A program made the position numbers and the translations under genes. Below the pieces are notes generated by a model that searched no databases, was not told the DNA's origin, and saw nothing but the letters and a program-made list of their open reading frames with translations. DNA of 64,000 bases from Phoenix dactylifera. Its lineage: Eukaryota; Streptophyta; Magnoliopsida; Arecales; Arecaceae. This document shows, piece by piece, positions 6,021-40,001 of the stretch. The stretch's first letter is position 1. Every line of letters begins with the position of its first letter. The DNA lies in the NCBI RefSeq assembly GCF_009389715.1, contig NC_052405.1, forward strand, positions 7,977,194-8,041,193, given 5' to 3'.

Positions 6021-7001
6021 TCATCCCCCAGACACTGCTCCATCCCTGAAAATCCCCAACATCTCATTTCTCCCTCTGATCACCTCCTCAAACACCTCAT
6101 CCACCGCAGCATCAAACCTCTCCACTTCCTCACTCAGCCCAGCTGACCTTGTCCTCAGCAGCTCAACACCACCCAAGAACCTCTCTTTGTCCTCAACCCT
6201 TCCTGCCACCACCTGGGCTTTCAGACGTCCCACCACCTCATCCACCATCTCATGCTCGACCAAAGCCAATCCAGAGCCACTCCCAGGCCTTGAAGTTCTC
6301 TCATGAAATCGCCCGACCAATTGCGTGAGCAACTCCACGCATGGCTTCAGCTGAGGTACCTCATGACTGATGGCTCCATTTCCCATGTCGATGGAAACAG
6401 GAGAAACCATGGCTGATACGAGGAGCAATGATAAAACTATCATTGTCGTCTTAGCGGCGAGCATCACAACAGCCATACTCTTCGCCTGTCTATGGTTGCC
6501 TCCTGATGAGATTCCACTGCCTAGTCTTAATGTTTCTCTCATTACTCCAACATCCAAAAGATTCCCATGGACTCTCTTGAATCTCTCGAATTCCATGTTG
6601 TTGACATCAACCATATTAGATGAATTGTCTTCACCAAGCTTATGGATTGCAAGTTCTACTACCATGCGATACCGATTGATTCCAGAGGCCGCGGACTTCA
6701 GTGAGTTGCAGAAATCTAGAAGAGTTGCAGTTTCTTTCATGTATTGATCAAACCAATCCTCCTCAGCCCCATAAGAGATTGGCAGCTTGGATTTCTTAAA
6801 CAAGACGAGGAGTTCGACCTGCATCTTCTTCAAAAGGCTCATGGCTTCGACGGACCACTTGAGAGACACCGAGTCCCTTGCCAACGACTGCTCCAGCCTT
6901 CCGAGATCTCTAGCGAGAGAAGAACAGAAGTCAGAGGCATCCTCGGTCAAAAGAAGATGCTGGCTTCGAGATAGGAAGCATGGAAGAACTGACCTTCCCA
7001 T
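6021..7001 (-). CDS. BPS1-like (DUF793) protein, intronless
   Basis: A single exon of 326 codons runs from ATG at 7001 to TGA at 6021. The N-terminal half has the helical pattern of the BPS1/ROH1-like family: LARDLGRLEQSL near residue 29, LKWSVEAMSLLKKM near 47, then a DWFDQYMKETATLLDFCNSL-type helix near 82 and RYRMVVELAIHKL near 110. A hydrophobic stretch at about residues 175-200 could be a membrane segment. BYPASS1 in Arabidopsis limits production of a root-derived mobile signal, and the related ROH1 binds the exocyst subunit EXO70A1; this copy has not been tied to either role. The first ATG of the frame is used, and the length fits the family. A lack of introns is also usual for it. Confidence 0.85.
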   Translation of the reverse strand: MGRSVLPCFLSRSQHLLLTEDASDFCSSLARDLGRLEQSLARDSVSLKWSVEAMSLLKKMQVELLVLFKKSKLPISYGAEEDWFDQYMKETATLLDFCNSLKSAASGINRYRMVVELAIHKLGEDNSSNMVDVNNMEFERFKRVHGNLLDVGVMRETLRLGSGISSGGNHRQAKSMAVVMLAAKTTMIVLSLLLVSAMVSPVSIDMGNGAISHEVPQLKPCVELLTQLVGRFHERTSRPGSGSGLALVEHEMVDEVVGRLKAQVVAGRVEDKERFLGGVELLRTRSAGLSEEVERFDAAVDEVFEEVIRGRNEMLGIFRDGAVSGG

Positions 7002-9345
7002 GCCTTAAGCTTGGAAGAATACCCTATTCGTATAAGGAGAGGGAGAAGCTTTGGCAATGTCTTGAGACCTACCTTGGCTTCTGAGTACTGGTCATGCTTG
7101 GTTTAGGGGCGGTGGAATCTGATACCTTCTATCGTGAAGGACTTCTTATCCTTTACATGGCTGGGGTACTTTTCTTTAGATTTTTCTTTTTTTTCCTTCT
7201 CTTTCTACAGATGAAGGGGAAAAGGAAGGGCAGATGGGAAAAGGATGAAGGGAGTACCAACATAATATCACAAAGAATACGTGATGCTTAAGAGTTTGAT
7301 TGTGAAGTAAGCAGGATGGAAAGAGGAGTCACGCAACAGGCAACCTACTATTTTGTTTCTTGGCTTGACTTGGCTTTCTTGGGCAGCAACAGTATCAAGA
7401 ACAAGTTGCTGTTAAACTTTTAGACACCATAATTAAGCAACCTCCAATCTATTGAGTATAGACTACCTTCTAAGCATTGACTGACCACACTTGGCAGGTC
7501 TAGAAGGAAAACTTATGAGGGGATCAAGGAAACAGAGTTCTAAGTAATCTCAAATGCGATGGTTGACAGACTGACAGTCAGAAAAATCAAAGTCACTTAG
7601 CAATGTTTCCCTTGTTAGAAAATAAGTTCCGGTCTAAGGGACCTTCTATGGTTCATGGTTCTAGGAGCACGCCTTTGTCAACGTAAATATGAGTGGAAAT
7701 CTAGCATCTAAGCACTAGAATTTAGATTAAACAGCAGATGCTTCTACTTGAACAAGATTGCATTGTAGAACTTGCAGATATGGATTCCAAAGCCGTCAAA
7801 TATGCAAGGTTGGATGGCATGTACTTTGTTTACAGCCTAGGCTTCACCTAAAGCTTCTCTTTGTTTGCTGAGACTTCATAATAACTAGTCTGAAGTTCTC
7901 CTTCAGATTGAAAACTAAGACGAGAGCTTCTAAAGAAATGGCATGCACGTCCGCCTCTTCCATGTAGAAGGAACCAATAGAATAGAGCTAATACGTTGGT
8001 CAACAAAACAGGCACCTTGAACTTAAAAGGTAAGGGAAAGGAAGTAAGATAACAAGAAAGCCATTAATTAGGCAGAAGGCTGCAGTCTGTTGGCCCTATC
8101 TTATGAGAGTTAGTAATGAAGTCTAACAGGCCTTCAGATGACCACAATGATGGTCCAAACACAAGCGAATACGGATCCCATGCACGCATGAGGGCTAAAG
8201 CACCGAACCTATCATGCATCTCAATGGATACTCAGTGGCTGGGGTTGCATCAGACCACTAAACGAGCATCAAACCTACTTCAATCCTCTCTGGGTTCAAA
8301 ACTTGTTCACGGACGCATTTTGCCCAAGAATTATACCGCCTCCTCCAGTTAAAAGAGTAACGTCCAACACCAGGTACAGGTATAAAGAACTCATTTGTTT
8401 ACCTCATACAAAGCCTCAAATAACGCGTGCAACAACATAGTTGCATAAAAGTTCAGCCATACGACATTTGCCGACTTCACAAAAGAAGCCATATAAGTCA
8501 ATAACTCAGAGACAAAATATATGCGTGCAACAATACTAGAAGAAACTGTTCGGATGGAGTATAAGAAAACTTTTCTTTTCACAAACATAAAAACAGGAAG
8601 TCAAGGTTGGGAATAGGTAGCAGCAGATGCATTAACTCTAAACTGATACAGGAAAATGTCGTTTTTTTCCTTTTCAGAAGTGATGTCTTAGTACTTTGGT
8701 TTCATATTGTGATGCCTGTCAGCTAAAAACGTAATTCGAAAACAGAGGATATATGTATCGGAATTTCAGGTATTTGTTCTAGAGAGCGGATCAGAATTCT
8801 GTCAGAAGAGATATCACCCCGAAGTTGAACTGGAAAATGACTTCGCCGCCGGTAATAAAAACCCGCTAAGAATGAGTCATCAACTGGCTCATGCATGGTT
8901 TATAGCTGCCCAATAAATTTAATCATAATCTATTTTCACCTAAATTACTCATGGATACAAGTTCGCATACATCATATTTCCAGAGTTTTCAGTATTCAAG
9001 TCAAGTATTTTTCAGTAACCATACTGCCGCATGCAATTGATTTTCTCCTTCTGCGCAAGGGAGAAAGTAAACAATTACGCAAAATAAATGTCTGCCTGAC
9101 CATTTATTTAAATTTGCCCCTGGGGGGCCAAACGCACAGCAGGAAGGTAGATGGCCTAATCAACATCATAAGCATGTACTATGTTATAGAAAAGTTAAGC
9201 TCAGAGTATGTGAATGCCCAATGAAATTTGAGACAAGATGGAAAAACAAAACTAAGGTTTGCAACTATCAAATGACCGAGAAACTCAGTCGTCAAGATAA
9301 AACAAGAAGAACATGGATGGAATATCAAATACTAGTAAATCTTCC
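7002..9345. other. Upstream region of the BPS1-like gene and gene-free sequence
   Basis: The part nearest 7002 should hold the promoter and 5' UTR of the BPS1-like gene. The rest is AT-rich with scattered short frames (such as a 78-codon one at 8116-8352) that match no family I know. No tRNA, clear repeat border or long frame was seen. Confidence 0.55.
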
Positions 9346-15500: not shown

Positions 15501-18500
15501 ATCAGAAAACCACCAAATTATATGAGCGTAAGGGGAAAAAAAGAGGGGGGAGCGAATATAACCTGGAACGCAGATTGGCTGGCATCAAGATCACCAATCA
15601 GAAAGCTTATGTTCTTTCCTTTGTAGAGCTCAGCAACTTCATAGTACTTGGACTTAAAAGCTTCAAAATTCTCGCTGCTGAAATTCAAAAAGAGCATGGC
15701 CTATCCACCACCAGATTCCAACAGAAAGAACATGTCACATATGAGGGCTAAAATGGAAGCACGATGTAAGATTACAGCACTAAATTATATCAATTTGCAG
15801 GAAGGTAATTATCAAGCATTTGCAGATGGTAAGAGTCAAACATGCACCAGAGTGCATTGACTTAGAACTACCACAAAATCCTGAAATAGCAGGTTGAAAG
15901 ATTCGATTGTAAATAAAGACTGGATATATTGAGTGCATTCATCACAACCAGTTCACTCGTGTCTGTTGATAAAAATTCAACTTTTGATGCACTGACTACA
16001 GTAGAGCTTTACAAAAAAAAAAAAAAAACTGCACAAAATTTGTTGCCACTTCAGCTTTCTATTAAACAAATTTACTTTAGAAAAGAAAATAAGTTCTTAC
16101 TTTGGCATTAGGACTGTTGAAGAATTTTATGAGAAAGGGATGGTTGCTTGGATCTTTATCAAAAGTAACAACCTTAGGCACACTAGCAACTTCAATGAAA
16201 TTCTCTAAAGCATCCACATGAAAATCCTGCACAAGATAACAATCAAATAGTTTATCAGAAAAACAGTGAGTCAAAGAAAGATGTTTTGCTCTTAGCAACG
16301 AGATAAATCAAAACATAAATATGCATGGTGTATATGCCTGTCAGCATATGCAAACAACTGAAAATTTAAAATTAACAAAGAATCAAAGATACCTGGGAAT
16401 CAACATAAAGTTCATCAAATGGCTTGAATAGCCTAACTATAGGTCCACTGACTGTTAAATCCCCACGTGGAAGGAGCTTAGCATCCAAAGTATGACCAAA
16501 ATCATAGTCTGATCGCAGTTTCTCAGCTACCACCATAAAATTTTTAAACTCCTCACGGGAATAATCAGGGAACACCCCCACCTATAATAATGTTTAATAA
16601 GATTGCAACTCAGCATGAAACACCACGAGAGATAAAAGAGGCAAGCGCAGGAAACTACAATGAGGATATGGATAACTTACAATAACAGTTTTCTTGTCCC
16701 CAATGAGAGTACCAGCATCCTCTGATGATTTTATCTCAGCTGAAGCAGGACCAACTTGTTTCTTCAGATATTCAACTATACCTTCAGCCTCCCTTGGACC
16801 TTTATATTCTTGGATGTTCTTTCCTTGATTCCTTACAATCTTAAGCGTGGGATAGCCCGTAACCTCATACTTAGAGGCAAGCTCTTTGTTCTTCTCATCA
16901 TTGGCATCAACTTTAGCAAGAACAACCGGAGGGTCATGCTTACTCAGTATTGATGCAGCCTTCTCATACTGCAAGTACAATACCCCGCCAAAACATCATT
17001 AAGAAATTAGTATGCACAGTCTTAATAAACAACGCATGTGCACATAAATTCTTAGTTCACATGGGTGATTTTCAGATAAACCATTACCTCTGGAGCAAGA
17101 CTTTTGCAATGTCCACACCTGTCACAATAGGGGTTCAGTATATCACAATCAGTAACAGACATATGTGGTATCTATAGAGAATATCACCTTATCTTCCGTA
17201 CAAAAAGTACATAGCCTAACAAAATAGAATGTGATCTAAAACTTTGGAGAACCAGTTAAAGTTGTAATCGCATCAGTATTAAATTGTACTCATTGAAGAT
17301 CAATTGCACTATATTTTTTGATTATTGCTTTGTTAATATTCTGAATTTGATGAAAACATCCCGTAAATAATCCTGCTCCTTGTTTGGGAAAAAAAATCCT
17401 AAGAAGGCACTAACATCTCGAGAGTCAAATAGAAGGGCAACTTTGACATAAACTTGAAAATAGTTGGTATTAGATTATAAAAACACTATAATACGTGGTG
17501 CCATGGTCTAACCATAAATGAGATGCATGTCAAGGATGCTTTTACCATGGAATATATGAAGTTTAGTCTCAATCTCCTTCTAACAAAGAGGTGAATTGAA
17601 AATAAACATATTAAAGGTGGAAGCAGAATAGTTGAACTGCAACACCTTTCAAGTTTGCAATGATGACATGGATAAGGGTTGTCATGCGTCACCTTAAACC
17701 AAAAATCCACCTTCTGGTGTAGCTCACAGTTTAGGTTCATGCAATCAAGGAGTGACCCTCCAAAATTTCCAATGAGAAAAGGATAGCTTGATGCGTTCAT
17801 CTCTAACGCATATGTGAGCCAAAGAGTCCAATGAAGCATAATCCCAATTGAAAAATATTATCTCAAGAATGAATTGTATCATGCCAGTGCCCAAAAATGA
17901 AGAAAGGCCATTGGCGTGATAACATGATAACATTTATCTCAAGATCCTAAAGAAATCTACTTCCAAGTAATAATCCACAAAAAATAAAATAAAATAAAAA
18001 CAGTGCTTCAACTACTCATGAATTGGTAACAAAAACCTTATCTCAATAAAATCATACCAGTTTGAGCATAATAAACCGTCATGGAGAAGGTGGATCTATA
18101 GATCATCTTAAAGTTCACTATGGAGCCATAGAACATCTTAAAGTTCACTATGGAGCCATAGAACATCTTAAAGTTCAGAACGAATATGCGCCCACAATAA
18201 AAGGCATATAAAGGTTTTTAAAGAAAGAAATATTAACAAAAAAGTTCGAAAATATGACCAAAAGAGACACAAATTCAAGAAAAATCATAATTTTGATATG
18301 AGAACTCACCAGAAATCAAAAACAAGAAACTTGGGGTGTAAAGATAGAAAAGGATGGATGAACTCCAACATTAAAACAAAGACATAGAAGCAAATATCGT
18401 AAAAACTATTAACAATTCTTTTAATAAAATTAAGTAAAAGAGGAACTTCCATCAAAATTGATAAGAGTCCAAAATCGTTAGCGACAAACCAAGATCCATT

Positions 18501-25057: not shown

Positions 25058-28000
25058 ATGGTTTTTGGGCAGGTGGTCATCGGACCCCCGGGGTCCGGGA
25101 AGACCACTTACTGCAACGGCATGTCACAGTTCCTCAAACTCATCGGCAGGTATTCGATAGCGTAAAAATCTTATCTTGTTGATTAATTTCTGGGGATTGG
25201 CCAGTTAAACTACTACTTTATCTGCGGATTTGATTAGTTTCTTGAAATATTAGTTAAGGCTCGTTACTCTTCATGCATATAAAGTTTGGGGGCAATAATA
25301 GTAAATTCTTGTAAGGATAGCTGCTGACTTAGGATGCTCGATATTCATGGAGGGTACAAGGTTAGCATCAAATTTTAGTCGTTTGGTTTGGCAAACCATG
25401 ATTTGCTGTGTATTTTTTTTTATCGTTTTTTCCTTTAAAAAAAAATAATAATTTTTATCCCTCAAGATGAAAGGTATTGCCATGCGAACTCAAATGTATA
25501 TTGAATTCGGCCACTTTTTCATGCCCAGTGTTTTCTCTATTTGTTTCAGTGTATATGGCGAATGATATTGATGTAGTAATTTGGCATCCTGAAGACAGGC
25601 ATCCTTATGTGGAATCACTTCTCCAGCTCTTATTTTGTAATGACATGTTTCATAGCAAATATAAGCCTCCATCATCCAAGTTTAGGAGAAGCTATCGATG
25701 TCTTTGTGAAGAACAATTGCACTTACAAAGTTGTAGAGCTAAAGAGGGGAGGGTACGAGGGAAGTTTTGACAAGAAATAGTTAGAAGGGATTAAAAACTA
25801 TTTCCATCCCAGATGACTTAGCCTTGGATGAGATCCAAAGATTAATTGATTTCCATGACCCATAACAAATGACATATCATCATAACCGAATTGGTCACTG
25901 TCCATCGTGCTGCATTCTTTGATATGATAGAAGTTTTTTTTTTGGGTATTTGGTGCTCAATGTTCGCCATGTAATGTCAGTAGCCCTATCCCTGCAGGAA
26001 AGTTGCTGTTATCAATTTGGATCCAGCAAATGATGCATTGCCGTATCCTTTCCGCCTTTAAATTTTGTTGCATTCAACTTCTATCTAATATATGATGTTG
26101 CAAAAAGCAAGTCTTCGTTTAACGAATGCCTGGTGGCTTTTCTTAACAATATATTTAGATATGAATGCACTGTAAATATTGAAGATCTTATAAAACTTAG
26201 TGATGTTATGACAGAACATTCTCTTGGTCCAAATGGAGGTAAAAATCTGATGGATTGCTTTCTACTCTAACACAGATAACACAGTTACATCTTCTATACA
26301 AGCTATCTACTGATGCATGATTTGTCCATATCATGCTTGATATATAGATAACGTGTTCCTTATATGTTTAACGGTCTGTTTGATTAGGTCTTGTTTATTG
26401 CATGGACTACCTGGAGAAAAATATTGACTGGCTAGAGTCCAAATTGAAGCCTCTCCTTAATGGTGAGTATCATAAGGTCTTTTATCACAACCCATTGATT
26501 CTCTGTTCTTTCGCAGGATATTTTATGTGGTAAGGCTTTGATGGTTGGCAAGTTTCTCGTTTGGTATGATGAGTTGAGTGCTTATATTGTCATTCCTTTT
26601 CCTTTATTATTTCTCTGGTGAGAGTTAAATTTTTGAAAGTGTGTTGCATCATCAAGTACTTCTATCTATCAAATGTAAACATCAAAATTCGTCATCGTTT
26701 TTCGAATAAAAAAGTTGTTCCTAAAAATGTTATACAACATGAAATGTGTGCAACATGCAAATCCAGTGACCTAACACTGTCTAGCAAGACTGTTCTCCAT
26801 GCTGTACATATTTGAAGGCCAACAACAGCAATCCTTAAAATTCGTTTGAAAACAAAGACAAGTTTCTGTGCTTCTATATCTGTAGTCCATGTAATGATGT
26901 ATAAAACCTACCATCTGAATTTCTTACTGTCTTGGAAAATGCTTGTGGCGCTCTTGTCAAGGTCCCTTCAAGTACTTGTTAAATTTCTCCTTTTGATGTG
27001 AACATAGTAATGAGTCAAGAATTACAGTGCCTCTATCTTCTCTCACCATTTTTTCTGATTTCAAATACATACAACTTACCATGAAGCATTATCTGAAGTT
27101 TGATCTCCAATGCTCTCCATTTTAGAGGGAGTAAGATCTACAATTTTTGATTCAGGGATGAAAGACCACAGAGAAATTAAGGTGAATTTTGCCTTCCCCC
27201 ATTCACCTTCCCAGTCTATGTTAATCAAATAAGCAACATAACTACAAAATGATGTTCTTTTCAGTCTATTTCGTGACCTTTATTTAAATGCAAAACTTCT
27301 TGCTGCCATGATTACAATAATTTTCTCCTCTTCTTCCCTCTTCTTCCCCCACTCTCCCTATGCCCCTACTTTGAATAAGTTACCTGTGTTTGATCCAAAA
27401 AACTGAGCAGCAGTATATCCTTCTTTAACACATAATACTTGGATAAAGACAAGAGAGAATTAAAGGTATATCTGTAATGGAAGATACAGCCCTCACAAGA
27501 ATTGTTGGAACCTGGATTTCAAGAAGATACCAAATAAAAAGGGGATGGCACTTGTTTTCTGATAATTTAGATAAATTACAAAGAATATATTGGTATTTAT
27601 AGTACTAAATATGGCCATAAGTTATAAAAATTTGTGCAAATTCTATAATATACAAGGAAAACATGTTTGAGAACTTGTTACAACCTCTAGGAATGGTGAA
27701 GGCATGCAGATTGATAGAAATCTGGATACAGTCTTGTGGTATGACCTGACAATTTTGATCTTTGGCATTATTTATTTCTTAGCTGTATCATCATGTTTGT
27801 TCTGTGAGACGTAGAAGGATCTAAATACCGTCATATAACATTACTGCACTGCACATTTGTCGGCATAGTATAGGATCCATTTATCATGCAATAGCCCATA
27901 AGTCTCTGTAAAGTATTCATGACAGCAATTTGCTATGGAAAAGTTGATAATACCTAGGCTTGGACTTTAAAAAATTCGATCAAACATATTAACTTAATTT

Positions 28001-29723
28001 CAGCTTGGATTCTGGGCTTCTCATTTTTTGCTCTTCTAAACTCTTCATTAAAATGGAAAAATAAATAATAAGTCATTCTTAAAGAGATGAACTTGTCAGT
28101 TAACTAGTGAAGCCAATTGCTTTCAAACTTTAGCATTTCTGACTGCCCTGCTTATTACTACAGATCACTATCTTCTATTTGATTTTCCTGGCCAAGTTGA
28201 ACTTTTCTTCCTTCATTCAAATGCGAAAAACATTATCACTAAACTTGTCGAGAAGTTGAACCTTCGGGTATGTTATTTATAGCAATGTGGTGGTTCTTAT
28301 TTGTTTGTGAATGTTCTTTCTGGGCTTATATAACTGAGCTTACATGACAACTTTCTAAGAATATCTATATTTTCGTTTTATGTTATCCAGTTAACTGCTG
28401 TTCACCTAGTTGATGCCCATTTATGTTGTGATCCTGGAAAATATGTGAGTGCTCTGCTTCTCTCGCTAACAACAATGTTACATATGGAACTTCCTCACAT
28501 CAATGTCCTGTCTAAGATCGATCTTATTGAGAGCTATGGGAAACTAGGTATGGTCAAAATCGCAATTATCTTGCTGGTGAATTGTAAGGCACACAACTTT
28601 CATGCGAACGGATGTACAATCAGGAGTGGTTGATCTGCTAATACTTTTTTTACAGCTTACAACCTTGAATTCTACACAGATGTTCAAGATTTATCTTATA
28701 TACAGCACCACCTTGATCAGGATCCTCGTTCAGCCAAATACAGGTGTTTCTTACAGTGAATATGCTGCAGATTTCTGGACACATGACTTCCTTCAGCTAC
28801 TTTTGCACTAGTCATTATAAGCTTATATTCTCACCATTCTCTAGCATGTGTCAATTTTAAATTTCTCTAAATCTTGCTAGAATGTCCAGGCATCGGTTAT
28901 GCATATTTTCATTAAATCTTGAAGTGTACAACACTCCATTGTAGATATATATCTGGAAAAATATTAATCAGGTGACTTTAATATATGTTCAGATTTATTT
29001 TATTTACTGAGCTGCTTGGTTAAACTGATTGCAGAAAGCTCACCAAAGAGCTCTGTGATGTCATCGAAGATTTCAGCCTGGTTAACTTCACGACCTTGGA
29101 CATTCAGGCATGTCTGCCTATTCTAATTCCTTTAAAATTTAATTTGTTGATATATTATCCTCACAGTGGACACGTGTTTCACTTTCCAGGACAAGGAAAG
29201 TGTCGGGAATCTTGTGAAGCTGATTGATAAAAGCAATGGATATATATTTGCCAGCATACAAGGGAGTGTTGTGGAGTACAGCAAAATTGCAGCTGCACCT
29301 CTTGACTGGGACTACTACCGATATCCTTTTTTCTGATTTTCCTCTCTCTCTTTTTTCAATTGCTTAATTTATGCTGTCTTCCTATCAAACAATAAGCAAT
29401 AAATATTTTTTTGATTTAGTTCTATGAAGCATGCAACAGCATTCTTGAAGACTTAAAAGTTTGATAGTTTTCCTTTATATATAGGCGAATCATCATGACT
29501 AAATTAAAACTTGTTTTGTTAGCATTCATTGGAACCTCCTTTTGCCTTTGCATCATCAGATTCACAAGTACCTGAGCGTACATGGTTAAATTCAAGCATG
29601 CAAGCACGGGCTACTGGTTGATGTTTTATGACATAGCCTCCTTTCCATTATCTGCCAAACAAGTCCCCTTAACAGGTGATTACGACAGCAGCAGTGCAGG
29701 AAAAATATATGAAGGATGATTAG
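25058..29723 (+). CDS. GPN-loop GTPase 2-like protein (10 exons, 294 aa)
   Basis: Exons: 25058-25149, 25998-26042, 26159-26238, 26388-26462, 28164-28267, 28391-28547, 28656-28743, 29035-29107, 29190-29320, 29684-29723. They join in one frame from [20 protein letters not shown] to QEKYMKDD, 294 residues, close to the usual GPN2 length. The Walker A loop GPPGSGKT is at residues 9-16, the family-defining Gly-Pro-Asn at 69-71, DFPGQVE (G3) at about 104-110 and LSKID (G4) at 172-176. GPN GTPases dimerise through the GPN loop and help assemble and import RNA polymerase II in the cytoplasm; GPN2 is the least-studied paralogue. The splice sites are unusual: intron 2 is U12-type GT-AG, intron 8 is GC-AG and intron 9 is U12-type AT-AC. 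GPN2 rather than GPN1/3 is chosen from the [19 protein letters not shown] start and [15 protein letters not shown] end. Confidence 0.95.
26043..26158 (+). other. U12-type intron with GT-AG ends (GPN2-like intron 2)
   Basis: The intron begins GTATCCTTT, a perfect match to the U12 donor consensus. It carries TCTTAAC at 26141-26147, a near-perfect U12 branch site, about 12 bases from the AG acceptor. There is no polypyrimidine tract of the U2 kind directly before the acceptor. The flanking exons join as DALP-YECTV in frame. Confidence 0.9.
29108..29189 (+). other. GC-AG intron (GPN2-like intron 8)
   Basis: The exon ends ATTCAG and the intron begins GCATGT. The first downstream GT would lengthen the exon by four bases and break the frame, whereas the GC donor joins LDIQ to DKESVGN exactly. 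The acceptor is TTTCCAG. Confidence 0.8.
29321..29683 (+). other. U12-type intron with AT-AC ends (GPN2-like intron 9)
   Basis: The intron begins ATATCCTTTT, a perfect match to the AT-AC U12 donor consensus. It ends CCCCTTAACAGGTGATTAC: the branch site CCCTTAAC is at 29666-29673 and the terminal AC is about 11 bases after the branch adenosine. Joining gives [18 protein letters not shown], the expected GPN2 C-terminus. No GT donor is available near the exon end. Confidence 0.92.
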
Positions 29724-30756
29724 TATTTTCAAAATTGATGGAGAGTGCGTTGTTGATGACCAGCTACCCTTTGCATGCTGCTCGAGGTAGTATAATGTAT
29801 TATTTTTTTGGTTAATGATCCACAATAAAGCATGCTGTGTGATCGCCTTTTCTCCATTTGGTGGCTCTGATAATAGCATACATTTTCCTCCTTTAATATA
29901 TAATGATTGAATCCTCTATTTGTCTGTCAAGGCTGGCAGACTTGGTGGCCTCATCATCTTGGTATTGAGCTAGCGTCGGTGCCTTCCTGCACTGTTTGAA
30001 GATCTGTAGTGTTGATGCTTTTACTTGTAACACAACACATATACATTATGGAAACTTGAAACACTCCTCGATATTCATATGCACAAAGATTGCTCCTCCA
30101 TAACATTCTTTTTATTTTGAAAATGATGCAATGGTTATAGCAATGAGGAAATAATGAGTGATGATATTTCTTATCCACTGACAACTGAACTAATTTCAGA
30201 TTAATTAGAGAATTCTTGCATCAAGAAGTATTCCTAGAGCCAGAGGAAACACGGGGCTCAGTCAGTATTTTTCTTGGAGTTAGGAATTCAATCTCTTGCA
30301 CTTGCCGTATCATATCTTCTTTTTTCACACTCATATTGTCACAGTGAGACCTTAGTTTCTGGTGCTTGTGAAAATGGATTTATCATAGGAAACGACGTGC
30401 CCTCCCCGTTAATAATCACAATACCTGTCCTCGTTGCTGCTGTTTTAGTTTCTGTTTGCTTCACACATACACGTTCGCATAAAATTGTGATTGATTTGCC
30501 TAAATCTGTTGAGCGATGATGGTCGCACGTGTCTTGTTAAGATCTTTTTGTGCTGCGCTGGCTGTTATCTTTTTTAGCAGGAGATTGAAATGCATGCAGT
30601 AGCAGTTCAGACTTCAGCTCAACCATTCAAAAGTACAAGGGGATATTATGTATGGTACTACTTTCAGTTCGTTTATCTGTTCCCTTTCTTGCCTTCGAAA
30701 CAATCATAAAGTCATGAAATGTTAACTTATTCCCTTCTTTCCCTCTCTTTATGACC
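29724..30756. other. 3' flank of the GPN2-like gene
   Basis: AT-rich sequence, probably starting with the 3' UTR. The 81-codon frame at 30274-30519 is uncharacterised and has no homologue that I recognise. No element borders were seen. Confidence 0.5.
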
Positions 30757-32721: not shown

Positions 32722-35700
32722 TTATGGCCCACTTTTGTTTGGCAATCTAAGCCCCTCATAAGCCTTGAGTGTCTCTGAGCTAAAAGTTTTCAAGGCTTCA
32801 AATATAGGAATTAAACCAGTCTGCAAAATACTGGAAGCTGCATCTTGGACTTGCTTAACAATTTCCTCATGTTTGGTTTTCACTTCTTCCAATCTTTTCT
32901 TCATCGAGTCCAATTCAGTCATGCGATCATCACGGTGTTCCCCACCATTCTCAGTAACTGACACTATATCCATGCGCTCATTCATCCCACTGACCTGCTG
33001 CAGAGATTTCTGCTTTCTGTCATAATCTCTGGACAGATACTCTGCCTTTAGTCTTAGGTGCTGTTCCCTGTTTTGACTCTCCCATAATTTATGTGCTACC
33101 ACAGAAAAATCATGCATTGCTTCAGTAGCTTTGTCTTCAGAAATACTTTTAGCTGCATGGAACCAATCATTAGAGATGATATATACAGCAGGAGCTCCAA
33201 TCCGGCCCGGGGAGAAAGGTGCAACCCCATCAGGTGTTTGTTCCAGTTCTTCTGGGAGCCATTTCATTAACCATCCATTCAATGCTTCAATATAAGCTTT
33301 CTGAGTGCTGATCCATTCCTTAAAACAACGGCACCAGTGCAAGAGATCCACCTCCAGTTCCTTGGTAGCCTTTGCATTTGATTGGCTTTGGCTTCCGGTC
33401 TTTGCCATGAGACTGTGGCTTTTGCTATCAACTATGGCTTGTAACTGCTTCCGATGACAATCCAGCAAAGATTTCCACATTTTAACCAATCTGCACACAC
33501 AAAGGATGATAATGTAAGCTCGGTGTCCTATTTCAAATATCTCATCCACATAGTACGAGATAAAGTTATGTAAAAGTAGAATTAATAAAAAAAGATCACC
33601 TAGAGAAGCACTAAATGTCCAATCAACTTGATGATTTATCATGCATATTTTACCATTTTTTTCTTTTATTGAAAGTGCTAGTCATGTTTGGATGCAAAAG
33701 TTATCAAAGGCTCAAAAGATTCATTGCATAATTTGGTTTGTTGATAAATTTATCATATCAAAATGCAAAATGAATGCTGGCCTCCCTTGATTTTTCAGAA
33801 GCCTGGCCATATTTTAATTTTCGCCACTTTCTTTTTTGATCTATAAATCTTGTCACAGTTGATTGACAGAGTTGATTCAAATAAGGTAGAAAATAATTTC
33901 ACCACCTGAGCATGAATTTGAAGAAGAAGAGCAAGAGGAAGAGAGAAAAAGCAATTCTAGTTCTACAAAGAATATTAAATCTCTCCGCAGAAAGCAGTAC
34001 AAAACCTGCTCCTTTTACCCAGGTCCAGCAAGTGTGTTTGAATAATTATCATGTTTCACTTCCCAAATTTTCCAACACAAAGCGTGACATCCACAAACTG
34101 GTGACAGTAGAACCTAAAGAGAGTAACATTCAAGCAAGGAGGAGCATTAAAACACTCTCAGCCAACTGGCAGGATAAGCAGACAGTCTGTGAAAATGGTA
34201 AATGTAAGGCCTCATAAAATTGTTACGAAGTCAAAGATATGCACAGTCTCATCCATTTTTTTTTAAATAAGGAAACAAAATGATGAGACCATGGATATCT
34301 TTGACTAGGATACCACCTTATGAAAGACTATTCACTATGAAAAAAAATCCATTGTAAATATTTTTGAAAAGAGATCCTACCATGAAAGGAATTCATAAAC
34401 AAGGTTATGCTGGTAAACGAAAAGGAATCTTGCAGTAGGAGACTTCAATCTCCCACAAATTACTATTTAAAATATCTCTAATGGCTCACTCTTTCAAATC
34501 TGATGTCAGCCTTAACTTTCCCTCTCCCATATAAGTTCTTCTCAGTTTAATGAAAATTCATCTTTTCAGATCTTTCTCCATCAATTCCAACCCTCTTAAA
34601 TTCTTAATACTATCACACTCTAATTCCATAAGTCATCTTTACAGAAAACGTATGAGTCTCATCGATCTACTAAAGCAAAACTAAATTGCATAAGCTGGAG
34701 AAACTTTTAATTTCTGATGCCAACAAACTACTGAATTCTAATATCAGCAACATAATGCTAGTTTGAAATTTGAAAGTAATAGGGTTGTATGAACCATTCT
34801 AGACTTGAACGTTTTTAAACTACACATTAACTTTAAGTGACATGGGAAAGTAATTACATAACGAGCACTCCTACATGAAATTTTAAATGCCTTAGTTTCT
34901 GTTGAGGCGACTGATAATATATAAATTTCAAAAATACAAGGGCATGATTATCTTCAGGTTTCAACCCATAGCTTGGATGATTAAAAAGTATATTTGCAGC
35001 ATGGGGTTTGGAACTTCAAACCCAGCTTACCCATGAAAATGCAAGCTGTCTGGAAGTCCAACACTCTTTAGCTCAACGAACCATTTTTTGTAATGCTATC
35101 TCTATCAAGAAAATACATTTGGTATATCCAATAGCTTAATGAAAATTAAGGAACAATTTAGTGATAATGAATAGTTAGACATTCGGAAGATTAAGACAGT
35201 TGAATCAATTTTCATACCCTTGAATCAATTCAGTAAGTTGGGGCTGCAACTCTTCATCTCTTATCTTGTGCATTCTGTTTGAAATGGCATCCACTGATTT
35301 AATTAGAATGCTTATTTTGGTACGTAACTTTCTTACTGATGTTCGAGTGGAGTCGATTTTATAGAACTCTGCTCCTTCACGATCCAAAGCTTTCAGGCGT
35401 TTGTACTTCTTGTCATAAATGCTCTGCAATTTTTCTTCATCCTAGCACAGCCACTTAAGCAATGTTAACAAATATTTTGACATCAAAATAGATTGAAAGA
35501 CTATGAGCCATCCATGGTTTTCTTCCATTACCTGTCCTAAGAATTGCAATTGAGAACGTTTAAACATTGTTATGTTCCCATTTGTTATTCTCCTTAACAT
35601 TTGTGCAATGACTGCTCAAAGTTTCAAAATTTACTTTCTTAAGTAGTTTGCACATATGCGTTCAAATTAGTAAGTTCACAAACTTAAAGGAATTCTTATC

Positions 35701-38700
35701 AAAACCTACAGAATCATTCAAATTCTCAGTACTATGCATATAGAAAAACACATCAGTATAGGGACACACTTAAGGTCACCATCTTGCTCAAGAAAGTGAA
35801 TTATGCTGATTTCAGCATGTATTTAACTTAGTTCTTCAGCCGAGTAGACCAAAAAAATGGATATGTCAGATTAGCATCACATCTCAAAACCACAGTCATG
35901 CAACAAATATCTGCTTTAAAAGTTTATGGTGACTTGACTGCAGAAGTAATAAAACATGCTCCAAGTCAGTTTCATAATTTTTCTAGCATGACTATGAGCT
36001 GAATTAATTGCAGAAATTTAAGCACCTGTTTGGATCCTTGGATACATTATCTATGAATATAATTTTCTGTTGTGTGAAAGTTTCAAGAATATTGAGAAAG
36101 ATCACTTGGAAAAGAAGTTCCCACAGATCTGGAGTGGCAACTGATCTACCAAGTCCTGAGAATTTGGATAAAACCAAAACTTGCAAAATGGTGATTTATC
36201 GTATCCCTGAAGAACAAATGAAACCTGCAGCTCATCCGAAAGTTTAACTTGTTAGTTATTGTAATCTTTTTCTTGGAACCTCTCTGGCTGTCCCGCCTGG
36301 CAGATAATATTCTCACATTATGAATTCTAACATCAAAGCAGGCCCTTGGCAGATATGCTGCCGAAGGCATCTTCTCTCTTATATAACAAGAGCCTTTGTG
36401 CCTGGCCTTGTGTTGTGTCCAACATTGTCTTATTATTTAATATAATCCAATCTTTAAGGGACATCAAATGTCTGCACATTCCCACCTCTAGAGCTATTCT
36501 TATCTTTAAAAAAGAACACCTTGCTTAGTTCAACAGTCGTTCTAAGCTAGAGAAACAAGAGAAGTGCACCACCCAAAAGTTGAGTACATTTTAAAATTAC
36601 ATAAATAATTTAATTATATCAGGATTCATAGTCATAAAAATAGCATCCATGGTATGCCGTACCGGCTCGAACTAGGCGGTATGGAGCATACCATACCGTA
36701 TCGGTTCGGTACTGGTACGGGTGGCTTACCGAGTGCAAAAAAATTTCATACTGTACCGACACTGTGCTAGTGTGGCACCGGTACGAGGCTTGGTACCGAA
36801 ACGGCGAATCTTCATAGCACCTTTACTCAATTAACTAAACCCCTATTTTCTGGCCAGAAATCACAATTAACCCCCCATGACTTCTATTATTCAATGTCCT
36901 TTTTGATTGCATATGTTTAATGCATGATAAATAGTTACGGCCAATGGGCTAGCAGATGTTAAAAAACATAATTACCTAATGTAAAACTGCACAAACGCAT
37001 TCAAACTGATATATGAAACGATAAACTATACCTTAACTTCCTTATACAATTTCTTCTCCCATACATACAACTTCTCCAAAGTTGATGAAAGGTTGCCAGA
37101 CTTCATATCCATGTGCTTGTCAGAAATGCCATTACTGGCTCTGCTCCTGATTGTGCTTGCAGCTGAATGTCGTGAACGCTTGAAAGAAGGACGTGAAGAT
37201 GCCAACATAGTAAAAGCCATAGGACGCCATATCCTGGAAGAGATAACTGCGACAAGACTTCTAAGATTCACTAATACTATAATAGTACATTAATTTGACA
37301 GTGTTTCTAAAGGAGATAATATAGTCAAATCTATTGTTGTTCAATAAGCTAACGTAACAGACATTCAAATACACATTTTAATTTGTACATTTATAATTTG
37401 ACTATATAATAGTACATGAATGTATGGAAAAACAAGAAAAAAATTATCCTGGCTGTTGCACACATACCATATGACTAATGATTGGGCTATGAACACATCA
37501 CAATAAGACAAATGAACAAGCTGGTTTTGTCATAGCACGCTTAACTTATCAAATCATTTAATTTTTAGGATGATTTCTCATATTCTTTAATTAAAGCACT
37601 ATTTGAGATGAAAATACCATGAATATTCATAGCACTATCATAGATTAGAAAGCATCCGATCATTTATTACTTTATTTTCAACTAACTTAGGGCCATCATG
37701 TAGTCAACTCTAAGTGGTCAGTGCATGAAGAACAGTGTACCTCTCTCAACCCAAAGGTTCAGCAGAAGATGTTATAAAGTGCTTCTACATGGAGAATAAG
37801 GATATTGGGGTAAGAAAGTGGTATTTGAATAGTTAATGGATGGTTGGAAAACAATAGTTTTGCTCCATGAAGGTCTTTGTGTTACATTGGGATTGAAGGC
37901 ACCCAATCAAGTGGAAGCTAGAGCTCTAAAAGGAGCGGTGTCAGAAACCTGAAGAATGTAAGCATTGAACAAAGAGAACAGAACTTGGAAGCTTGTATCT
38001 TTATAAAAACAGATATTACCAGATTTGCATTGTCATCTCTTTTGTACTATTATGAAATAACTGTGTTTACAACGAAGAAGTAGAAACAGATAAAGAGGAA
38101 TTGTAGTTGCAATTACCAAATTGAGTTGTGTAAAGCAATTTACACTGCTCTCCAAGAAAATCATTCTGTAGAGGAAAACCAACGAAACTTTTTGCCAACA
38201 TGTTCAGAAGGATGGAGTTTAGTGTCCAAAGAAAACAAATCTTTCCCATGTCAGAGACAACAACAACAACTAATATGTCACAACAATCAAGAAAAAGAGA
38301 AAAACACCATATCTGGACCCCTACTCCCCCTGTTGAGAATTTCATTTATTAGATTTTAAGAGTAACTTTCAGCACAATGAAATCAAGCCTAATAGACAAA
38401 TATCCTTCCCTCCCTCAGCAATTGGCTGCAAGGTTCTTGCAGATAACAATCAGATCATTCCAAATAGAGTATAAAAATGATAAATGAATGCAATACCGAC
38501 CTCTAAACATTCTACTTCTTGATCGGTACGGCAACTTGCCAACCTCAAGCATCCTTGAAACCACTTCCCCATAATTAGCAGCTGAGTTGAAATGCTCCTT
38601 AATTTCCTTCATAACTTCTGCCACATCTCTCGTACCATGAGCAGATAATGCATTTCCACTGCTTGGATCAGACATCGATTTCCCATTGCTAGGAGTGGAT

Positions 38701-39917
38701 GACGATTTCCCACCACTAGGAGTGGACGATGCTTTCCCACTGCTTGGCCCGCTCTCCTCCGTAACAAATGATGTTTCTTCCTCAAATTTCACTCCCTTTT
38801 TCTTCCCACCGGATCCGTCATCCTCCCCGCTGCTCCTTAGTCTGCTTGACACTGAACTACTCTTACTCTCTTTATCCCCTGACCCAATTTTACCATTCTT
38901 CTCATCCTTCTCTCCCTTTTCTTGCGTTGATTCGGTCTTATAGCTGCCAATACTAGATTCCTTCCCTCCTGAATCTTCTCTCACAACCTTCTTCTCTTTC
39001 CCCACCTCCTTCATGGCTTTGACCTCTGTCTCATCCTCGAGATCAGGAATCCCTTCCCGCTCCCTCACCTCGTTCGAATCAGGACTGCTCACATAAGAGG
39101 TCCCCCCATACCTTTCACCACCATACTCTGGTAAAAGTCTCTCATAAGTATTGAAAGGATCAAAAAATTCCCAAGCAGAGCCTTCAGGGGGGGGCGGCGG
39201 TGGAGGACTTGAAGGAGCTGCTGCCACCGACCCTGGAGGACTCATTGGCCGGTCATAATAATAGGAATTCTCTTTACCCGGCAGCGGAGATCCAATTGGT
39301 ACACCATATGGTGGATACCCAAATCCATACCCATACTCATATCCGTATCCATATCCACTGTTAGAAGGATGCTGCCATTGTTGGGTATTGGGGTCCTCAT
39401 ACGACATGGTGGGGATCGCCGTCGATGACCTCATGAATGAATAATTAGGGCTCGAAGCGGCCGAGGCCGTCCCGGGAGGGGAAGACGACGACTCTACTCC
39501 GCCGCCGCCGCCTCCTCCTCCTCCTCCTCCTCCTTTGCTCTCCGGGCTCGCGCCGGCCTCCGAGCCGGAGGATAGATGCAAGGGGGAGCCGTCATCGGAG
39601 AGCGAGTGGGAGAGCGGCGTCACGGAGGATGACCCGCCACCACTACCGCCGCCGGAAGCGGAGCTCACAGATTTGCTTTTGCCCTTGCCGTCGGATGGCA
39701 GGGTGAGCACCGGCGACCCGGGGGGTGACGGCGCCACCGCGAGCTCCTCCCGGACGAACCGCTCGAGCGAGTCGCCGACGGCGGCGAGCGCCCGGAAATA
39801 GGCGGCGTGGGCAGTCGCGAGGGCGTACCGGCGGTCCGCCGCCGCCCGGATCAGCTTCCTCCTCTCCCGGCACAGCGACACCACCCTGGACTCCGCCCTG
39901 GAGCTCCCGCATCCCAT
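32722..39917 (-). CDS. DUF630/DUF632 protein, NRG2/REL2-like (4 exons, 874 aa)
   Basis: Exons in transcription order: 38501-39917, 37032-37246, 35218-35441, 32722-33490. They join in frame to 874 residues. The N-terminus MGCGSSRAESRVVSLCRERR is the conserved DUF630 start, with Gly2 and Cys3 suited to myristoylation and palmitoylation. DUF630 covers about residues 1-60. A low-complexity Ser/Gly/Pro/Tyr-rich region follows, with a poly-Gly run near 133-142 and a proline run near 245. DUF632 begins near 431 (DVAEVMKEIKEHFNSAANYG) and continues through SGNLSSTLEKLYVWEKKLYK, RDEELQPQLTELIQG and MWKSLLDCH, with long coiled-coil helices toward the end. Known members are Arabidopsis NRG2, a nitrate-signalling regulator that binds NLP7, and rice REL2, which affects leaf rolling. 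Which role applies here is unknown. Intron 1 holds a GTACCG repeat. Confidence 0.95.
36650..36815 (+). repeat. GTACCG-rich dispersed repeat, copy 3
   Basis: Lies in intron 1 or 2 region of the DUF632 gene (between exons at 37032 and 35441). It has GTACCGGCTCG, CATACCGTATCGG, GGTACTGGTACGGG and TGTACCGACACTGTGCTAGT. Its inverse shares a 33-base core with the copy at 21700-21895. The ends are again near-inverted (CATGGTATGCC and GGTACCG). Confidence 0.65.
39507..39536. repeat. Trinucleotide run encoding poly-glycine
   Basis: CCG then CTC units on the plus strand encode the poly-Gly run in exon 1 of the DUF632 gene. Such runs often vary in length between plants of one species. Confidence 0.7.
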
Positions 39918-40001
39918 ATCCCGCCGCCGCCGCCCTCAATCCCTCTCCCCATCTCTCCTCCTCTCAATCATCGATTGACGACCAAAACCCCAACTCCGAC
40001 C

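Follow-up and report, generated by a model that had tools for sequence, protein, structure and literature searches.

The window analysed here is a stretch of 64,000 nucleotides from the genome of the date palm, Phoenix dactylifera. Positions 25058-29723 of its forward (+) strand hold a gene for a GPN-loop GTPase, referred to below as GPN2. Its relative in Arabidopsis is QQT1, which we take to be GPN2. The gene was described in an original prediction as GPN2-like and as using four kinds of splice-site pairs. Rebuilding it from the sequence gave 10 exons with a coding length of 885 nt (294 codons), and reproduced to the base the start and end of the gene as proposed, along with the positions of the three introns singled out (26043-26158, 29108-29189, and 29321-29683).

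A probable GPN2 gene with ten exons

The reading frame is open across the 10 exons and contains a single stop, the terminal TAG, with an AATAAA located approximately 100 nt further 3' at position 29824. Residues 7-255 of the predicted protein match the Pfam family ATP_bind_1 (PF03029, E 3.3e-79) over positions 1-239 of the 240 in the profile, and its best relative in PDB is GPN-loop GTPase 3 (E 1.6e-55, residues 3-252). The alignment with the latter crosses the junctions of intron 2 and intron 8 without gaps. A protein search of the genome (773 Mb, 2391 contigs) with GPN2 returned 10 matches, 8 of which were at the GPN2 locus; the other two were a GPN1-like gene on contig C3 (L013, 34% identity) and a GPN3-like gene on contig C17 (L012, 56% identity). 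No second close copy of GPN2 was found in this search. Since the GPN1-like and GPN3-like genes lie elsewhere in the genome, the remaining locus looks like the plant GPN2 orthologue, an assignment made by elimination. The GPN2-like name and the intron classes proposed originally are supported.

Intron classes and splicing motifs

In minor introns the donor RTATCCTT is read by U11 and then by U6atac, while U12 pairs with the branch element. All nine introns of GPN2 were scored against this donor and against the branch motif TCCTTRAC with its end 8-20 nt from the junction. Both motifs, and a branch spacing of 10-15 nt, were taken from the accessible part of PMC2426677, with R permitted at the two variable bases. 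The introns comprised six ordinary GT-AG introns, one GC-AG intron (intron 8), and two of U12 type (introns 2 and 9). To arrive at four kinds of splice-site pairs, class has to be counted along with the terminal dinucleotides, and on that basis the original count is correct. Introns 2 and 9 both scored 8/8 for the donor and 7/8 for the branch, with spacings of 11 and 10 nt, respectively, and the remaining seven reached only 3-5/8 for the donor and 4-6/8 for the branch (Table 1). Intron 2 reads GTATCCTTTCC...TTCTTAAC, followed by 11 nt up to the terminal AG, and intron 9 reads ATATCCTTTT...CCCTTAAC, followed by 10 nt up to the terminal AC. The final base lies 12 nt from the branch A in intron 2 and 11 nt in intron 9, and the reported optimum is 11-13 nt (PMC3584512, accessible part). 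Furthermore, both introns are in phase 2, in agreement with a reported scarcity of phase 0 among U12 introns that did not reach significance in soybean, rice, or maize (PMC7367187, accessible part).

How often such motifs arise by chance was estimated in simulated sequence with the dinucleotide content of the window, for GT donors and AG acceptors, the AT-AC class being outside the scope of the simulation. A perfect U12 donor occurred at 39 of 87701 GT dinucleotides (0.00044), and 1.0% of 60000 AG dinucleotides had a branch match of at least 7/8 at 8-20 nt. The mixture of four kinds of splice-site pairs was considered as a notable feature by itself and rejected, on the frequencies of GC-AG and AT-AC introns and because the GPN1-like gene also has a GC-AG intron. 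In Arabidopsis, GC-AG introns make up about 1% of U2 introns and AT-AC introns about a quarter of U12 introns, and AT-AC introns account for 13-26% of U12 introns across four plants (PMC7367187 and its table 2, accessible part).

Alternative junctions and rival explanations

Other in-frame junctions were enumerated in ranges around introns 2, 8, and 9, for GT-AG pairs and then for GC-AG pairs, with one intron varied each time. Every one of them in the ranges searched deletes, inserts, or replaces residues. Intron 2 has four in-frame GT-AG pairs including that of the model; the remaining pairs would insert 17 residues in one case and exchange 12 or 14 in two cases. For intron 8, nine of the 10 alternative GT-AG pairs delete 4-26 residues and the tenth adds nine through the donor CAT/GTCTGC. 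For intron 9, each of 18 GT-AG pairs loses at least 16 residues, and the mildest of 21 GC-AG pairs loses nine. We consider it very probable, judging from the frame, the motifs, and the protein matches, that the locus is a plant GPN2 orthologue in which the minor spliceosome takes out introns 2 and 9 and the major one the other seven. In such a gene, introns 1 and 3-7 (GT-AG) and intron 8 (GC-AG) would leave via the major spliceosome, and introns 2 (GT-AG) and 9 (AT-AC) via the minor one, so that full-length mRNA would need both. Also in favour of this interpretation are RNA genes of the minor spliceosome that scored over the Rfam cut-offs in this genome, namely U12 (at least one), U6atac (at least six), and U11 (at least one), and the findings on Arabidopsis QQT1 and on the GPN family cited further below.

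Several observations weigh against this interpretation. In introns 2 and 9 alike, the branch element departs from the consensus (7/8). When the whole window was scanned blindly for donor and branch together, two pairs turned up on the (+) strand and five on the (-) strand, which is at chance level (expectation 2.95 per strand, s.d. 2.07, 40 simulations), and intron 9, with two mismatches in its nine-base branch element, was missed at the threshold of the scan. As motif pairs in the window are at chance level, the motifs count by coinciding with junctions that the frame demands and not by their rarity. For intron 2, six in-frame GC-AG pairs were present, the mildest of which (26040-26158) costs a single residue, with a poor donor (ATT/GCCGTA). 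Neither the Pfam nor the PDB alignment reaches the exon 10 residues or the intron 9 junction, so the acceptor of intron 9 is placed from the motif, the frame, and the C terminus of Arabidopsis QQT1. Of the RNA genes of the minor spliceosome, U4atac was not found in the genome search; the 14 control genomes were negative in all four RNA searches (U11, U12, U4atac, and U6atac), so the U4atac result does not show absence. Further, the accessible text of the Arabidopsis study (PMC5853960) refers to the U12 intron of QQT1 in the singular, whereas date palm GPN2 has two predicted ones, one of them an AT-AC intron in last position, and two such introns may hence not be general in plants. Finally, both the actual splicing of GPN2 in Phoenix dactylifera and the dependence of its expression on the minor spliceosome are predictions from DNA sequence.

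The two U12-type introns invite separate alternatives. Intron 9 might not be constitutive, with transcripts commonly ending within it or staying unspliced, in which case the usual protein would end in ...DYYRYPFF and exon 10 would be a minor or chance extension. Retention of intron 9 brings a stop after four more codons (286 residues in total), so that 282 of the 294 residues are kept and YPFF replaces the last 12, and it is these last residues that are uncovered by Pfam or PDB homologues. We nevertheless regard this as very unlikely, as a donor of 8/8 and a branch of 7/8 with the right spacing stand exactly where the frame requires them, the 12-residue peptide of exon 10 presumably resembles the end of Arabidopsis QQT1, and the AATAAA lies shortly past the exon 10 stop. 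Intron 2, on the other hand, could have undergone a class conversion, with most of its splicing now done by the major spliceosome and its U12 motifs left as relics. Its GT-AG ends would be accepted by both spliceosomes, conversion of introns from U12 to U2 type has been described (PMC7367187, accessible part), and two options are at hand in the in-frame acceptor at 26107 (17 residues more) and the GC donor at 26040 (one residue fewer). Such a conversion is highly improbable, however, with C at base -1, a donor, GTATCCTTT, that is perfect for U12 splicing and a poor partner for U1, a branch element whose end lies 11 nt from the junction, and not much of a pyrimidine tract between that element and the AG (CTTAACAATATATTTAG). 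That all the motifs are chance matches in a pseudogene or a wrong gene model is hardly conceivable: the chance-level count of donor-branch pairs in the window would allow it, but the frame stays open over 294 codons, the match to the Pfam domain covers almost its whole length, and the genome protein search yielded no close second copy.

Six of 11 long open frames in the window were put through a Pfam scan. A plant gene with DUF630 and DUF632 domains lies on the (-) strand at 32722-39935. An open frame at 16594-16995 (-) has a thioredoxin domain (Pfam Thioredoxin, E 5.1e-11) and might, as a guess, be one exon of a gene for protein disulfide isomerase. An open frame of 327 residues at 6021-7004 (-) gave a weak ROH1-like match of 20 bits, below the Pfam cut-off of 21.5. 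In the genome, two of the U6atac matches (C5:34304-34428 and C517:149475-149599) have identical scores, and perhaps represent a duplicated or unmerged stretch.

Table 1 Coordinates of the predicted GPN2 gene parts and of the neighbouring DUF630/DUF632 domains in the window.
Feature	Position	Strand	Remarks
GPN2 exon 1	25058-25149	+	
Intron 1, ordinary GT-AG	25150-25997	+	U12 donor 5/8, branch 5/8
GPN2 exon 2	25998-26042	+	
Intron 2, U12-type GT-AG	26043-26158	+	116 nt, phase 2; donor GTATCCTT 8/8, branch 7/8
Intron 2 branch element TTCTTAAC	26140-26147	+	7/8, ends 11 nt before junction
GPN2 exon 3	26159-26238	+	
Intron 3, ordinary GT-AG	26239-26387	+	U12 donor 4/8, branch 6/8
GPN2 exon 4	26388-26462	+	
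Intron 4, ordinary GT-AG	26463-28163	+	U12 donor 3/8, branch 5/8
GPN2 exon 5	28164-28267	+	
Intron 5, ordinary GT-AG	28268-28390	+	U12 donor 5/8, branch 4/8
GPN2 exon 6	28391-28547	+	
Intron 6, ordinary GT-AG	28548-28655	+	U12 donor 5/8, branch 4/8
GPN2 exon 7	28656-28743	+	
Intron 7, ordinary GT-AG	28744-29034	+	U12 donor 4/8, branch 5/8
GPN2 exon 8	29035-29107	+	
Intron 8, U2-type GC-AG	29108-29189	+	82 nt, phase 0; CAG/GCATGT...CCAG, U1-like donor
GPN2 exon 9	29190-29320	+	
Intron 9 (last), U12-type AT-AC	29321-29683	+	363 nt, phase 2; donor ATATCCTT 8/8, branch 7/8
Intron 9 branch element CCCTTAAC	29666-29673	+	7/8, ends 10 nt before junction
GPN2 exon 10	29684-29723	+	40 nt, C-terminal residues and stop TAG
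DUF632 end	32722-33681	-	Pfam
DUF630 and DUF632 start	38415-39935	-	Pfam

Predicted minor introns in the GPN family and their possible consequences

The paralogues were modelled in the same genome. In the GPN3-like gene, whose model comprises seven placed introns and stops before the 3' end, one of the seven is of U12 type: intron 3 (742 nt, phase 2, at codon 79) is a GT-AG intron with the donor GTATCCTTT and the branch TCCTTAAA. None of the five introns of the GPN1-like gene has a U12 donor and branch together. Three of the 21 introns placed in the GPN family of this genome are therefore of U12 type, at three different positions. Shared descent of the GPN2 and GPN3 U12 introns was considered and rejected, as the introns fall at alignment columns 101 and 346 in GPN2 and at column 134 in GPN3, all in phase 2, in an alignment of the three proteins in which the GPN3 model ends before the place of GPN2 intron 9. 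Two further introns of the GPN1-like gene were observed. The donor of intron 1, GTATGCTTTT, scores 7/8, one base off the U12 motif, with a branch of 5/8, and the intron may perhaps be a converted minor intron. Intron 2 is a GC-AG intron that splits the P-loop coding region, and its donor CAG/GCATGT has the same nine bases as that of GPN2 intron 8.

The link between this gene and the minor spliceosome is mostly known already. According to the accessible text of PMC5853960, Arabidopsis QQT1 (At5g22370) encodes an ATP/GTP-binding protein and its gene contains a U12-type intron, its splicing is severely impaired in u11/u12-31k, and a QQT1 cDNA rescues the growth defects of 31k plants. Its splicing is also defective in u11-48k (PMC4892727, accessible part). 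The proposal that GPN2 expression depends on minor-spliceosome activity is reasonable in light of these mutants; it is not new, and for date palm it is a prediction. In a review, the share of minor-intron genes among the GPN-loop GTPases is given as 100%; its accessible text names no species and presumably refers to mouse or human (PMC6865273). Compared with that figure, date palm GPN2 (two U12-type introns) and GPN3 (one) are alike, whereas GPN1 has none among five. On the other hand, the accessible text of PMC7367187 argues that the excision of U12 introns is not slow enough to affect expression, which counters a rate-limiting role.

Two U12 introns in one gene are uncommon but familiar. In humans, two are found in about 50 genes and three in a few (PMC3584512 and PMC6717393, accessible parts), in keeping with the earlier statement that such introns usually occur singly. 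The accompanying claim of rarity holds in the sense of uncommon and needs a qualifier, as U12 introns cluster within genes beyond random insertion in 21 of 21 genomes tested, plants included (PMC7367187, accessible part). Most mammalian SCN and CACN1 channel genes likewise have two U12 introns, although they belong to another family and lineage (PMC2831892 and PMC3584512, accessible parts). Plant CBP20, a different gene, has a conserved U12 intron 4 among other introns, but only one (PMC5932401, accessible part). No report of two U12 introns in a plant GPN2 was found among the titles and abstract openings searched, a search that covered full texts in part and left subscription papers mostly outside. 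In viral contigs, the search for GPN2 relatives with introns gave seven stretches that matched the pattern, none of which encoded a relative. Two points are added here: a second minor intron in GPN2, of AT-AC type and in last position, and the U12-type intron of the GPN3-like gene.

The two U12-type introns would have different effects if retained. With intron 2 retained, the GPN2 frame stops after 51 residues, far upstream of the stop met within a retained intron 9. As intron 9 is the last intron, a transcript retaining it would lack any later junction that could target it for decay, which leaves room for a C-terminal GPN2 variant. Skipping of the 40-base last exon, named in the original prediction as an observation that would refute it, is unworkable in this role, as skipping in its usual meaning does not apply to a terminal exon. 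A bolder possibility is that the plant GPN GTPases, which act in RNA polymerase assembly and import, form a small minor-spliceosome regulon (GPN2 twice, GPN3 once) in which the AT-AC intron of GPN2 serves as a switch. Under limiting minor splicing, a retained intron 9 would give a stable, near-full-length protein with an altered tail, and a retained intron 2 would silence the gene. We think this possibility very unlikely.

The GPN2 finding leaves the current understanding of minor splicing unchanged. GPN2 would be a convenient reporter: it is essential in Arabidopsis, and its GT-AG and AT-AC minor introns can be compared under one promoter. For the family, the date palm gene adds a plant GPN2 with two predicted minor introns to a group already known for such introns.

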